Shown here one piece after another: positions 3,006 to 29,088 of a stretch of DNA of 33,470 bases. A program made the translations under genes and the position numbers. Source of the DNA: Methylotenera sp. (GTDB taxonomy: Bacteria > Pseudomonadota > Gammaproteobacteria > Burkholderiales > Methylophilaceae); assembly GCA_023259635.1 (NCBI GenBank), contig JALRGX010000001.1, positions 1-33,470 on the forward strand, written 5' to 3'. Under the pieces are notes generated by a model, which saw only the letters and a program-made list of their open reading frames with translations, searched no databases and was not told the origin of the DNA. Position 1 is the first letter of the stretch. Each line of letters begins with the position of its first letter.

Positions 3006-4439
3006 ATGTTTCGCTTTAACGCATTGACTACATTAAAATTTCTTATCTTTGCGTTATTCATCGGGCTTATAGGTTTGTCACCGAGCCTAAAGGTTATTCC
3101 GCAAGGGTTAATGGCCATCAGCCTTCATGATAGCCAGCGCTTGGTCGAACTGTTGTTTATTGGTGTGATATTGCTAGAAAGCATCACTTTTAGAAACAAC
3201 ACATCCAGTATCACTATCAACAACAATATACGTTACACACTTTATGTTCTGATTGCATTAGCGATTGTTTCATCATGCTTAGCCATATCGCCACGACATG
3301 CCATAATTGAAACCAGTCTGTTTGCGGGACTAACCTATCTGGCTTTATATGTTGCACGTTCATATAGCGATAATAGTACGCAGCTTATCAAACGCCTTAC
3401 TTATGTTTTCTGGGGCGGTATCTTGCTGTCTATGCTCGCTTTCTATGTAGGTTACATCACGGCTACGATTTTCAAAACCCCTGTAACCTGGCCCGCGCCT
3501 ATCACTGGCTTTAATAACGTCAGACTTTTTAATCAATACCAGCTTTGGACATTAGGATTAATCTTATTGCCGATATTATCCTTTGACTTTAAAAATGCAC
3601 ACTCCCGCTATTGGCTGCACTTAGGCTTGATCTGCTGGTGGGTGATCCTGTTCCATACAGCATCGCGAGGTGTGCTACTGGCTTGGGGATTAGGCATATT
3701 AATCACCGCGTTAATATATAGAAAATTGGCTTGGCCGTTTATACGCTTACACCTAATACACATCACAAGCGGATTTCTAAGTTACACAATATTATTCAAA
3801 CTGATTCCATTTTTAAGAGAAACTTCAGTAGTCACCGGGACAATCGTGAGAGAAACCACTAGCGACCGTATCGCATTATGGAGTCAGTCAATTAACTTAA
3901 TTCAAAATCACCCTATCTTTGGCATTGGCCCCATGCATTTTGCATGGTACAGCCCAATAAGCGCACATCCACATAACAGCGTACTGCAAATAATGATGGA
4001 ATGGGGGATGCCTGCAGCTTTATTGATATTCGCGTTTGCAATCTACGGCCTATTTTTCTGGCTAAAAAAAATCAACATTGCAACATTGCAATCCAAAACT
4101 AGTCATGATCGCAATTTAGCAATCATACTATTTTTCACCGTCGTTACTAACGCCGCATACTCACTATTAGATGGTGTAATCGTAATGCCTATCAGTCAAA
4201 TCATGATGTTCACATTTATCGGACTCATGTTAGGTTATTACTACAAGTGCAATGCACCTAAAGCACATAGAATTAAAAGAGGGTCATTCTTCAGCCACTT
4301 ATTCCCCAGTGTTGTGCTGATCGCCCTCATCTTGTCGATACTACCTGAAGTATTACAGAATGCTTCTGGCGACGAGAAAAGATTCTCGATCGGTTACACA
4401 GCAATGGGGCCGCGCATCTGGCTGGAATTCAAACAATAG
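3006..4439 (+). CDS. O-antigen ligase / Wzy_C family membrane protein
   Basis: 477-residue polytopic inner-membrane protein with about 10-12 hydrophobic segments. A Wzy_C domain covers about residues 170-350, including HTASRGVLLAWG near 216 and the motif GIGPMHFAWYSPISAHPHNSVLQ near 300-322, with the conserved His before Asn. Members of this superfamily join glycans to lipid A core, protein or another glycan chain. The protein is shorter than the preceding ligase and lacks the long soluble PglL-type tail. It is therefore probably a second ligase with a different acceptor, or a polymerase. It sits in the same orientation 245 bases after the first ligase. The acceptor cannot be read from the sequence. 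Confidence 0.8.
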   Translation: MFRFNALTTLKFLIFALFIGLIGLSPSLKVIPQGLMAISLHDSQRLVELLFIGVILLESITFRNNTSSITINNNIRYTLYVLIALAIVSSCLAISPRHAIIETSLFAGLTYLALYVARSYSDNSTQLIKRLTYVFWGGILLSMLAFYVGYITATIFKTPVTWPAPITGFNNVRLFNQYQLWTLGLILLPILSFDFKNAHSRYWLHLGLICWWVILFHTASRGVLLAWGLGILITALIYRKLAWPFIRLHLIHITSGFLSYTILFKLIPFLRETSVVTGTIVRETTSDRIALWSQSINLIQNHPIFGIGPMHFAWYSPISAHPHNSVLQIMMEWGMPAALLIFAFAIYGLFFWLKKINIATLQSKTSHDRNLAIILFFTVVTNAAYSLLDGVIVMPISQIMMFTFIGLMLGYYYKCNAPKAHRIKRGSFFSHLFPSVVLIALILSILPEVLQNASGDEKRFSIGYTAMGPRIWLEFKQ

Positions 4440-25009: not shown

Positions 25010-27784
25010 ATGCTAAAGAATAGCCTCTTAGCCAGCCTTGCTGCTATTATGATGGCACACAACTCCATTTCGCATGCGGCACCTGATATGCCAAAGGCAA
25101 ATGTAGTAACCTCTAAAATGCTGCTGCAGTTGCGTCCAGGCATGTCCAAGTCTCAAGTACAATCGATTATGGGCACGCCGCTAATTCAAGATAATTTGCA
25201 CAACAATGTCTGGAATTACATCTACCAGAGACGGCAAGGTGACAAAATCAAAGAACAGCGCCTTGTAGTGCTGGGTTTTGAAAACGAATCATTAAAATCG
25301 GTACGTGGAGACATCATTCCAGTTGACAGCAGTCAGTCAACAGCGAATGCAGTGGCATCTTCAGCAGATTCCCGTAAAGTTGCGATTACTGAAAAATCAA
25401 ACGCCAGCACTAAATTGCCAGTTGCCCGCCAAGAGAGCAAAAATACAATACGCAACAACAAGCCCACAAGCGGCTCAAATTCGGTAGCAGATGGCGGCAT
25501 CATTATTGACGGCGACAAGCTGGAATTGCACATTGACCGAAAAATGCGTTCTATCGGCAACGCATCCATACATCAAGACAATCAGCATATTTCCGCAGAT
25601 ACACTTGAATATGATGAACTGAACGACGAACTGCACGCAGTTGGCAACGTTCGCATAGAAGTTGATGACACAAAAATAACCGGTCCGGAATTGCGAATGC
25701 ATCTGTCCGAAAGCATAGGTGAAATGCAGGACGCTTCAATTAGCATGACGAATCCGTCAACATCCATATCACAGAAAAAGCGCGGCCAAAGCTCAGAAAC
25801 CTTCGCCAGGCAATTAGGCGGCCTGCAGAGCCAGCATATAGGCAGTGATGATTCATATACATCACCTTATGGTTTACCGGTCACAGACAACATTGACAGC
25901 AAACAAGAACTTCCGTTTTCACTTAACACAGCAGCACGCTCAACAAAAGCCCGCGGCGACGCCGCAGCAATATTACTTGAAGGGCAGGATAAAAAACGGC
26001 TTTTGAGCGCGCGCTATACCACATGTGAGGCTGGCGTAGATGACTGGTATATAAAGGCCAGCGAAATCTCGCTTAATGACTACACAAAGTCCGGTAGTGC
26101 TGCAAATGCACGCGTAGAATTTAAAGGGGTACCTTTACTCTATACTCCCTGGATCAGCTTTTCATTCAATGATCAGCGCAAGAGTGGCCTGCTGGCTCCA
26201 ACTATCGGCAGTACCAGCCGCAGCGGCTTTGAAGTGCTGGTACCTTATTACTGGAATATCGCGCCCAATATGGACGCAACCCTTGCTGCGCGTGCTTTAA
26301 GTAAACGCGGCGTACAATTGCAGGGTGAGTTCAGGTATCTGCAAGAAGATTACTCAGGAATAGATAGTATCGAATACCTGCCTTCCGACAATCTCACCAA
26401 CGGTACACGTTACTATGCCAACCTGAAACATAGGCACGATCTCGGAAATGGTTGGTCTGCGGGCTATAGCCTTGAAAAAGTATCAGATGATCAATATTTT
26501 TCAGATATGTCTACACGTATTGTTACCACCAGCCGAGTTAATCTGCCGCAACAATTTAATGTAGATTATGCAGATGACACCTGGAAATTCAGTGCGCTTG
26601 CACAGAAATTCCAGACCCTAAGACAGGATGCATATCCGTACGAGCGTCTACCGCAATTATCTCTGATTGGCAATAAATACTACAATAACATCAATCTCGA
26701 CCTATATTCGCAACTGACTGTATTCGACATTAATAAGGATGAGCCCATCACCGGTAACCCGCGCGTAACCGGGACCCGCACAACCATATACCCAAGCATC
26801 AGCGTTCCATTCAATAGGCCCTATGGTTACGTGACCCCCAAGTTCGGCATTCATCACACCAGCTACAGCTTGAATGACGACCCCAATAAAGAATCGTCGT
26901 ACCAACGCACCTTGCCAATATTCAGCCTGGATAGCGGCCTGTATTTCGACCGTGATTTTAAAATTGCCAAGCGCGGCTATTCACAGACATTGGAGCCGCG
27001 TCTGTTCTATGTGTACATTCCTGATCACAATCAGTCGAATATACCGATTTTTGATTCCAGTTTATCCGACTTGAATTTCAGTTCACTATTCAGCGAAAAC
27101 CAGTTTGTAGGTAACGACCGTATCAACAATGCCAACCAGCTGAGTTTCGCCCTGACCACGCGCTTTATTGAAAGCAGTACTGGCACACAGCGATTATCAG
27201 CTTCCATCGGTCAACGCTATTACTTTACTAACCAGAAGGTCGCTCTTGATTACAGCGATCCTACTTCGTTCCGTAAAAACAATAGTTCAGATATCATTGC
27301 CGGAATCAGCGGCCAGCTTAGAAACAGCTGGGTAATAGACGCGTTCTGGCAATACAACACCGATAACTCAAACTCGGTTCGTTCTACAGTTTCGGGCCGT
27401 TACAATCCGGAACCGGGTAAAGTACTTAATCTAAGTTATAGCTACAGGCAAGACTCTATCGACCAGGGCGACATCTCCGCACAATGGCCATTAGGCAAGG
27501 GTTGGTATGGCGTCGGACGTGCCAACTATTCTTTCAAGGAAAGCCGTATCATCGAAACTATCGGCGGTTTGGAGTATGATGCAGGATGCTGGCAAGCACG
27601 ATCTGTCATTCAACGCGTAAGTACGGCTACGGCAGCAGCCAACTATGCCTTATTTTTCCAGCTCGAACTTGGCGGATTAGCTTCCATCGGCGCAAACCCG
27701 CTCAAGGTTATCCAGCGCAATATCCCAGGTTATGTCAGCTCAGGGCTGATACCTGACACCTATCAACAACCATATTACGAGTAA
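25010..27784 (+). CDS. lptD: LptD with an N-terminal BamE-like (SmpA/OmlA) domain
   Basis: 924 residues from the ATG at 25010. LptD forms the outer-membrane barrel that, with LptE, inserts LPS into the outer leaflet. Domains in order: Sec signal peptide (1-23, ending SHA, no lipobox cysteine); a BamE-like SmpA/OmlA domain (about 33-104) with LRPGMSKSQVQSIMGTPL, then VWNYIYQRR and VLGFENESLKSVRG; a Ser/Asn/Lys-rich linker (about 105-160); an LptA/OstA-like jellyroll (about 161-248); a polar insert (about 250-312); and the LptD barrel (about 315-924), with YTTCEAGVDDWY, FKGVPLLYTPW and PYYWNIAPNMDATL. Only two cysteines remain in the mature chain (Cys339, Cys860), matching the inter-domain disulfide. 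Ordinary LptD proteins have no BamE domain and are usually about 750-850 residues. The frame is continuous throughout. A TTG start at 24893 would spoil the signal peptide. surA starts two bases after the stop. Confidence 0.93.
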   Translation: MLKNSLLASLAAIMMAHNSISHAAPDMPKANVVTSKMLLQLRPGMSKSQVQSIMGTPLIQDNLHNNVWNYIYQRRQGDKIKEQRLVVLGFENESLKSVRGDIIPVDSSQSTANAVASSADSRKVAITEKSNASTKLPVARQESKNTIRNNKPTSGSNSVADGGIIIDGDKLELHIDRKMRSIGNASIHQDNQHISADTLEYDELNDELHAVGNVRIEVDDTKITGPELRMHLSESIGEMQDASISMTNPSTSISQKKRGQSSETFARQLGGLQSQHIGSDDSYTSPYGLPVTDNIDSKQELPFSLNTAARSTKARGDAAAILLEGQDKKRLLSARYTTCEAGVDDWYIKASEISLNDYTKSGSAANARVEFKGVPLLYTPWISFSFNDQRKSGLLAPTIGSTSRSGFEVLVPYYWNIAPNMDATLAARALSKRGVQLQGEFRYLQEDYSGIDSIEYLPSDNLTNGTRYYANLKHRHDLGNGWSAGYSLEKVSDDQYFSDMSTRIVTTSRVNLPQQFNVDYADDTWKFSALAQKFQTLRQDAYPYERLPQLSLIGNKYYNNINLDLYSQLTVFDINKDEPITGNPRVTGTRTTIYPSISVPFNRPYGYVTPKFGIHHTSYSLNDDPNKESSYQRTLPIFSLDSGLYFDRDFKIAKRGYSQTLEPRLFYVYIPDHNQSNIPIFDSSLSDLNFSSLFSENQFVGNDRINNANQLSFALTTRFIESSTGTQRLSASIGQRYYFTNQKVALDYSDPTSFRKNNSSDIIAGISGQLRNSWVIDAFWQYNTDNSNSVRSTVSGRYNPEPGKVLNLSYSYRQDSIDQGDISAQWPLGKGWYGVGRANYSFKESRIIETIGGLEYDAGCWQARSVIQRVSTATAAANYALFFQLELGGLASIGANPLKVIQRNIPGYVSSGLIPDTYQQPYYE

Positions 27785-27786
27785 CT

Positions 27787-29088
27787 ATGTTGCGTATTTT
27801 TGTTCAGATTTTATTTTTCAGTTTATTAAGCATCAGCCATTTCACTGCGTCTGCAGCCGAGATAGTAAAAATGGATCGCATCGTTGCAGTTGTTGATCAG
27901 ACTGTGATCACCGAGCAGGAACTGGATAACCGCATCCGCACCCTTACAACACAACTGACTAAGCAGGGGGCTGAATTGCCTCCGGAAAATATTCTTCGCA
28001 AACAAGTACTGGAACGCCTGATTTCTGATGCATTGCAATTGCAATACGCAGCACAGACAGGCCTGAAGGTTGATGACAATCAACTCGACAAAACAATAGA
28101 GCGCATTGTGGATCAGAACAAGATGACAATGAAAGAATTTGCTGATGCCCTCAGCGCTGATGGCATTAGCATGACAAAATTCAGGTCGGATATCCGCAAT
28201 GAAATTACCATCGCCCGTTTACGCGAGCGCGAGGTAGATAGTCGCGTAAACGTTAGCGAATCTGAGATTGATAATTTCCTGACCACCCAAGCCTCAAGCA
28301 ATGAAAATCGTGATGAATTTGAAATTTCTCACATTCTTATCCGCACTCCTGAAGAAGGCTCTACCGAGGAAATACAGAAAGCCAAGGCCAAAATTGACGA
28401 AGCGATCCAGGCACTACATGATGGCAACAGTTTTGCCAAAGTTTCAGCAAGCTATTCTGATGCCCCCAATGCACTGGAGGGAGGCAGTTTAGGCTGGAAA
28501 AGTGCTAGCCAGTTGCCTGCATTATTTCTCGATGCTTTAAAAAACATGCAGACCGGAGACATTTCCCCTGCGCTACGTAGCCCGAATGGTTTTCATATAT
28601 TAAAACTTACCAATAAACGTGGCGGCAACTCCCCCTTGGTCATTGAGCAGACGCATGCACGCCACATCCTGATCAAGCTTTCGGAAATCGTATCTGAATC
28701 CGAAGCCAAGAAAAAAATGGATGAAATTAAAGAGCGTCTTGATAATGGCGAAAAATTCGAGGTGCTCGCACGCCAGTATTCTGAAGACGGTACCGCATCG
28801 AACGGCGGCGATCTGGGCTGGGTCAACCCTGGTGACACTGTCCCTCAGTTCGAGAAAGCCATGAATGAGCTTAAAGACAACCAGATCAGCGCACCGGTCC
28901 GTAGCCCGTTTGGCTGGCACATTATTCAAGTACTCGAACGCCGCAAACAAGACATGACTAAAGAAGCTGCCCGCCTGAAAGCACGTCAGGAAATTCGCAC
29001 GCGTAAAGTTGATGAAGCTTATCAGGACTGGCTTCGTGAATTACGCGACCGTGCTTACGTGGAATACAGGCTTGAAGATAAATTCTAA
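27787..29088 (+). CDS. surA: Periplasmic chaperone / peptidyl-prolyl isomerase SurA
   Basis: 433-residue periplasmic chaperone for outer-membrane proteins, including LptD. It has a signal peptide (about 1-23, ending TASA), an N-terminal SurA_N chaperone region (about 25-170, opening VKMDRIVAVVDQTVITEQEL), two parvulin domains (about 178-277, opening FEISHILIRTP, and about 288-390, opening HARHILIK) and a short C-terminal helix. The ATG lies two bases after the lptD stop, so the two are almost certainly one operon, as in many proteobacteria. Confidence 0.97.
   Translation: MLRIFVQILFFSLLSISHFTASAAEIVKMDRIVAVVDQTVITEQELDNRIRTLTTQLTKQGAELPPENILRKQVLERLISDALQLQYAAQTGLKVDDNQLDKTIERIVDQNKMTMKEFADALSADGISMTKFRSDIRNEITIARLREREVDSRVNVSESEIDNFLTTQASSNENRDEFEISHILIRTPEEGSTEEIQKAKAKIDEAIQALHDGNSFAKVSASYSDAPNALEGGSLGWKSASQLPALFLDALKNMQTGDISPALRSPNGFHILKLTNKRGGNSPLVIEQTHARHILIKLSEIVSESEAKKKMDEIKERLDNGEKFEVLARQYSEDGTASNGGDLGWVNPGDTVPQFEKAMNELKDNQISAPVRSPFGWHIIQVLERRKQDMTKEAARLKARQEIRTRKVDEAYQDWLRELRDRAYVEYRLEDKF

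Follow-up and report, generated by a model that had tools for sequence, protein, structure and literature searches.

The lptD gene of this Methylotenera sp. genome encodes, ahead of LptD itself, a domain resembling BamE, a subunit of the BAM complex, and the question is whether this arrangement is genuine, how it arose, and what a BamE domain could be doing on LptD. The window referred to below is the whole stretch of DNA that was analyzed, 33,470 nucleotides from the genome designated G000, and the fused protein is designated P0001. The features of the locus are collected in Table 1; the gene following lptD is presumably surA-like.

Table 1. Features of the fused lptD locus, in positions of the window
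Feature	Coordinates	Strand	Basis
lptD with N-terminal BamE domain, P0001, 924 aa	25010..27784	+	Translation, Pfam, genome survey
Signal peptide, residues 1-24, without lipobox Cys	25010..25081	+	Cleavage site judged by eye
BamE domain, residues 29-104 (Pfam core 31-97 = 25100-25300)	25094..25321	+	Pfam, PDB chain matches, model, Foldseek
Linker, residues 107-161, taken as disordered	25328..25492	+	pLDDT <50; dN/dS of residues 106-160
LptD N-terminal (LptA-like) domain, residues 193-356	25586..26077	+	Pfam E 2.6e-4; strands in model
LptD barrel domain (Pfam LptD), residues 466-832	26405..27505	+	Pfam, class LptD survey, Foldseek
Cys339, first of the two cysteines of P0001, invariant in 44 aligned LptDs	26024..26026	+	
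Cys860, second cysteine of P0001, invariant in 44 aligned LptDs	27587..27589	+	
Next gene, presumably surA-like	27787..29088	+	ORF list

As the initial annotation had proposed, lptD is one uninterrupted frame, its coordinates and phase being correct and its translation stop-free from the ATG; a TTG start 39 codons upstream of this ATG would give a 963-aa ORF. Using Pfam, the BamE profile (PF04355) was found to match the N-terminal domain with 73.5 bits (cut-off, 23.2; E = 1.2e-20) and the LptD barrel profile to match with 343.7 bits (cut-off, 22.4; E = 2.1e-102). The LptD_N match lies narrowly above its cut-off (21.7 against 20.4 bits). The LptD behind the domain is complete. Searched alone, the BamE domain matched solved BamE chains, that of Pseudomonas aeruginosa (7jrk) at 1.1e-15 and the Escherichia coli BamE structure entries mostly at 2e-8 to 5e-8. 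A model of the domain gave 25 PDB matches in Foldseek at an E value of ≤0.001, 24 of which were chains of BamE or chain E in BAM structures, the remaining one being the N-domain of TpgA (TpgA-N), with TMt values of 0.39 to 0.68 over the set. Profile, solved chains, and BamE-fold model thus agree with the domain having been called BamE-like.

AlphaFold models of moderate confidence (mean pLDDT of 69.6 for the full protein, and 62.5) kept both the BamE fold and the LptD body. The full model (pTM of 0.53) matches LptDE structures, and its 15 best Foldseek matches were all LptD structures or models, aligned over about 780 to 830 columns. P0001 shares with LptD (PF04453/PF03968) the LptA-like domain, the barrel, and these best fold matches, and differs from it in the additional N-terminal BamE domain and linker and in having two cysteines; E. 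coli LptD has four. As the two are at residues 339 and 860, no cysteine precedes residue 339, the BamE lipobox is absent, as had been noted, and at most one disulfide could form. Over the whole window, no Rfam match was obtained at the gathering score.

An assembly artefact or frameshift, such as a stop between the domain and LptD, was ruled out, as the same frame is common to seven genomes, including G116, which is a single contig of 2.5 Mb. The E values, together with this recurrence, also exclude a chance match. A separate bamE, which the initial annotation had suggested looking for, is present: PF04355 had two matches over cut-off in G000, the fusion and C129:2810-3010, the product of which combines a lipobox-like VSCG with the usual start, KPYKLDIQQGN. 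A separate lipoprotein-type bamE was found in all seven fused Methylophilaceae genomes. The distance between bamE and lptD is about 45 kb in G116 and 41 kb in G134, with the two genes on opposite strands. Compared with the BamE (SmpA/OmlA) lipoprotein, the domain of P0001 shares fold, core sequence, and origin, its nearest relative being the genus's own bamE, but it is without the lipobox, the KPYK...QGN start, and the equivalents of G35, F68, and the aromatic residue at 57, and it lies within LptD while a separate BamE coexists.

To describe how widespread the fusion is, the whole protein was used as a query against the genomes of the family, of which 186 of 187 matched; LptD rows were listed for 149, and the counts of this search rest on these. 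Among the matches listed, those aligned from residue 1 came from seven genomes, four of the 51 with a listed LptD row in the window's genus, g1 (G000, G116, G134, and G117), and three of the six in genus g24 (G183, G184, and G185). In the other 142 genomes the alignment began at residue 106 or later with no BamE part aligned, a start that by itself leaves room for a divergent BamE further upstream. Six-frame profile scans of 50 family loci (L032 to L081, a few genomes being represented twice) found LptD at all 50 and BamE in frame in exactly the seven. The architecture, seen in 7 of the 149 genomes listed, is as unusual as had been supposed, and in the other 142 LptD does without the domain. 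In a collection of named genomes, BamE was found in the LptD frame at 5 of 80 loci, all from metagenome-assembled genomes (MAGs): Methylotenera sp. AG31, Methylotenera sp. RIFCSPLOWO2_02_FULL_45_14, Methylophilaceae UBA7525, and HGW-Betaproteobacteria-1 and -2. Their proteins are identical, respectively, to those of G134, G117, G183, G185, and G184. By this kinship, the window's genus, g1, is Methylotenera. Using a joint BamE and LptD_N profile against 399 genomes of the window's order, a joint match was obtained only in G000 among the matches listed.

The N termini of other LptDs in the family also vary. Five (L068 to L072) carry a different motif, about R(I/V)KLRMS, before the LptD N-domain, and three unfused g24 LptDs (L062, L063, and L067) have a long N-terminal stretch of another kind at the place occupied by the BamE domain in their sisters.

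A second lineage with the fusion was identified in the class, where an LptD survey found the protein in 136 of 143 genomes. Twenty of these loci were scanned in six frames, 15 with frames of at least 886 aa (G000 apart) and five with frames of 862 to 876 aa; LptD was found at all 20 and BamE in frame at one, that of G713 (68.4 bits by Pfam). A further candidate, G946 (frame of 912), was rejected, as its GC-rich frame proved to hold an ordinary bamE of the lipoprotein type. G713 is 99% complete in three contigs and 1.1 Mb, and its fused BamE is the sole BamE match even at an E value of 10. Its order is unrelated to the Methylophilaceae and has genomes of ~1 Mb; a BamE match (E value of 0.01) was obtained in 24 of 25 of them; in 22 it lies in a frame of at least 860 aa, and in all 22 LptD is in that frame also. 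BamE and LptD share one locus in G715 and G729, where the frame is broken and was read as pieces, and G737 has a second copy of the domain that runs into a contig edge before the barrel. No standalone BamE was found in the 25 genomes by profile search at an E value of 0.01. G714, with neither BamE at that threshold nor the N-terminal part of LptD, is uninformative on the fusion. BamD (PF13525) was detected in 24 of the 25. A joint BamE and LptD_N profile gave, among the matches listed for 369 genomes of the class, joint matches only in G000, G713, G724, and G721.

The fusions of this order (loci L228 / L234 and L235 to L258) share with P0001 the order of domains, their place in the gene, and, by eye, a signal peptide without a lipobox. 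They differ in that no BamE other than the fused one was detected, in keeping the KPYK..QG start and F68-type residues, and in belonging to a different LptD lineage. Five of the loci have a G+C content of 32 to 36%, and in both G713 and G730 lptD is followed by frames that are presumably surA-like and then pdxA-like, with a presumed ksgA-like frame after these in G730.

The two lineages differ at positions conserved in standalone BamE. With the register to E. coli BamE numbering set by alignment, all 55 standalone Methylophilaceae BamEs have G35, F68, and F or Y at 57, as do all 25 domain copies (from 24 genomes) of the order of G713, whereas the Methylophilaceae fusions keep none of the three (0/7 for each). 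The equivalents of N36 and D66, present in 55 of 55 standalone proteins, remain in two of the seven fusions each (G000 and G117), the window's own copy thus being one that keeps both. Of the 25 copies from the order of G713, 17 retain D66, one has N36, and none has L63; since N36 and L63, both fixed in Methylophilaceae BamE, have changed there, the three-position contrast is one of chosen positions. No row in any of the three groups has changed at fold positions such as G60, P62, W73, Y75, and F95, and the KPYK..QG start, kept in the order of G713, is absent from the Methylophilaceae fusions. Mutations of G35, N36, D66, and F68 in E. coli BamE raise sensitivity to vancomycin, Y57 not being in the table concerned (Knowles 2011, via PMC10135246). 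The contact residues are taken from mutant phenotypes in that review's table, and some may be structural.

The initial annotation had suggested that the domain could tether LptD to BamD and BamA. Through the ordinary BamE site this is not supported for the Methylophilaceae fusions, given the loss of the three equivalents in all seven. A BAM tether fits better in the order of G713, which keeps the three positions and in which no BamE besides the fused copy was detected. From loss in 7 of 7 against retention in 25 of 25, we judge that the domain of the window is probably no longer part of BAM and works for LptD, and that a functional BamE is probably what LptD carries in the order of G713. Our reading is that the sole-copy fusion would still do the work of BamE in BAM and the Methylophilaceae duplicate would not.

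Selection on the domain was examined by pairwise dN/dS. For pairs with usable dS, values were 0.09 to 0.23 in the fused BamE domain, 0.51 to 1.15 in the linker, 0.03 to 0.11 in LptD_N, and 0.02 to 0.06 in the barrel; saturated pairs yield no dN/dS, several of the dS values used exceed 1, and the ranges leave out the deep pair L032-L064 (BamE, 0.08 at a dS of 5.1; linker, 0.95). The standalone BamEs of the same genomes gave 0.013 to 0.044, set against 0.09 to 0.22 for the fused domain in that comparison. These ratios indicate that the fused domain is under purifying selection, weaker than that on the BamE lipoprotein, and that the linker is hardly constrained; the faster evolution of the fused domain relative to standalone BamE also fits relaxed constraint.

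To trace the origin of the fused domains, trees were built from 62 BamE domains (7 fused and 55 standalone), on 76 residues for protein or 228 bases for DNA. In g1, all four fused domains fall among Methylotenera bamE, where their neighbors are the BamE lipoproteins of G116 (supports of 99/86 and 97/80), of G134, and of G000. For g24, the DNA tree groups the three fused domains with the BamE lipoproteins encoded in those three genomes (87/96, the inner forks being weaker), and the protein tree has them next to these lipoproteins at its midpoint root. The fused domain of each genus thus lies beside that genus's own bamE, favoring two internal duplications as the probable source. The branches of the fused rows are long, and in the DNA tree the long fused-domain branches of G116 and G134 meet, which calls for caution. 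Forcing all seven fused domains together costs 6.2 and 11.9 log-likelihood units, and the AU test (P = 0.34 and 0.17) leaves a putative single origin within the family unrejected. In the linker of L034 (G134), residues ~120 to 135 resemble by eye the C-terminal tail of that genome's own BamE lipoprotein, as if the tail had been copied too.

An LptD barrel tree of 91 rows, made with a quick method, placed unfused sisters of the g24 fusions within g24. It grouped G000, G116, and G134 together and put G117 with the unfused G146, G129, and G144. On this tree, midpoint rooted and with G117 counted as vertical, one vertical gain in the family implies 12 losses; the minimum is three changes. The sequence of G117 was compared in 100-base steps. 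From -99 to +400, identity to G000 is 80 to 94%; from +501 on it is 54 to 80%, against 78 to 98% (mostly 86 to 98%) to the unfused G146, and beyond -100 on the upstream side, those steps that align well return to being nearer G146 (81 to 96%). The left edge of the patch is therefore no more than about 100 bases from the start codon, and the right edge lies between +400 and +500. Between G117 and G000, synonymous sites have a divergence of 0.38 over the BamE part and are saturated over LptD. The switch in identity together with this contrast in dS argues that the module moved into the LptD background of G117 by recombination, and the pattern indicates that a patch of some 400 to 600 bases (L035; signal peptide, BamE domain, and linker) entered an otherwise unfused, third LptD background.

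What the domain does on LptD can be approached through a known barrel partner. We give about even odds (roughly 0.5) to P0001 carrying a flexibly tethered periplasmic module that is dedicated to LptD. The domain would have vacated the BamE site of BAM and would bind another, putative partner, which may be LptE, the nascent barrel, or the rim of the LptD barrel on its periplasmic side. Such binding would help LptD to assemble or stay assembled, by analogy with the BamE-fold N-domain of TpgA, which binds the AtaA barrel. The TpgA N-domain has been crystallized in complex with the AtaA barrel (9VNJ; PMC13082670); no mention of SmpA or BamE was found in that paper, and TpgA-N as a BamE-type domain is a result of the present profile and Foldseek comparisons. 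Chain B of 9VNJ was the rank 10 match of the P0001 domain model (E = 9.1e-5), with a weak sequence match (E = 0.063). TpgA has, as P0001 would, a BamE-fold domain dedicated to one outer membrane barrel, AtaA being a trimeric autotransporter, but TpgA is a separate protein with an OmpA domain, whereas the P0001 domain is part of LptD, and no OmpA domain was matched in P0001 by Pfam at an E value of ≤1. A TpgA-like protein with BamE and OmpA domains by Pfam is encoded in G116 (L095, G116:C1:548706-548906), beside a frame that by eye looks like a trimeric autotransporter.

This precedent, the match of the domain model to TpgA-N, and the TpgA-like protein in G116 led us to rank a dedicated module first for P0001. 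Points against it are the retention of N36 and D66 in G000 and G117, the 142 of 149 listed family genomes in which no BamE part aligned, and the unrejected single origin. In the order of G713, the fused domain, as the only BamE detected, would probably still dock on BamA and BamD, LptD there carrying a BAM subunit.

Second in rank, and clearly less probable for P0001, is a tethered domain that still binds BamD and BamA weakly, at high local concentration; it would bring its own LptD to BAM or coordinate BamA and BamD while the barrel folds, the weakened contacts allowing release afterwards. BamE sits between POTRA5 of BamA and BamD (PMC13067283, PMC10135246), and the slow folding of LptD on BAM described in PMC13067283 is in line with such a role. 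It is also consistent with the occurrence of the fusion in two unrelated groups, with the state of the order of G713 (fused BamE only, the three positions intact in 25 of 25, BamD in nearly every genome), and with the fold residues kept in all seven window-type fusions. However, those same seven have lost G35, F68, and the aromatic residue at 57, the BamE lipoprotein that is also present would compete for the site, and a passage on E. coli in PMC6529637 counts against any simple story in which LptD needs BamE.

Unlikely, though third in rank, is an accidental N-terminal duplication that folds, is tolerated, and is slowly decaying, as the patchy distribution, the faster evolution relative to standalone BamE, and the loss of BamE-conserved residues might suggest. 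Decay sits poorly with a dN/dS well below 1 next to a nearly neutral linker, with fold residues invariant in 7 of 7, with what is probably more than one origin and transmission by recombination, and with a fusion that runs throughout the order of G713. Least probable of all is a role in binding phosphatidylglycerol or LPS near LptD, the one observation behind it being that E. coli BamE reportedly binds phosphatidylglycerol.

On sequence grounds, the fusion is a new combination of known parts, and the strongest claim to be made for it is architectural and evolutionary. No description of a BamE-LptD fusion was found among the listed titles and abstract openings of open-licence PMC papers, a body that includes few subscription papers and no preprints; PMC8151025, PMC7806268, PMC5056442, and PMC10300371 contributed nothing decisive. 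The occurrence of the fusion in two unrelated groups suggests that the lines of LPS insertion and outer membrane protein assembly can be physically linked. Taken further, and tentatively, BamE would exist in the order of G713 solely as the N terminus of LptD, BAM would be complete only via LptD, and LPS exit and outer membrane protein assembly would be obligately coupled; in Methylophilaceae, the fusion would have arisen separately by duplication, the copy then being released from BAM for a job on LptD only. We hold this combined scenario to be doubtful as a whole.

Both LptD and BAM, essential in E. coli, are being explored as targets for drugs, and the fusion bears on whether LPS insertion is spatially coordinated with barrel assembly. 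That LptD has been joined in nature to a BAM subunit, in two unrelated groups and in one of them as the sole detected copy, is independent evidence of a functional link, and the fusions are ready-made constructs for testing it. They also form a natural experiment, in that the three BamE positions are retained in sole-copy fusions and lost alongside a separate BamE, a pattern that predicts the residues relevant to BAM. Elsewhere in the window, the neighboring proteins at 979-2760 and 3006-4439 have many hydrophobic stretches and by eye resemble O-antigen ligase or polymerase types.
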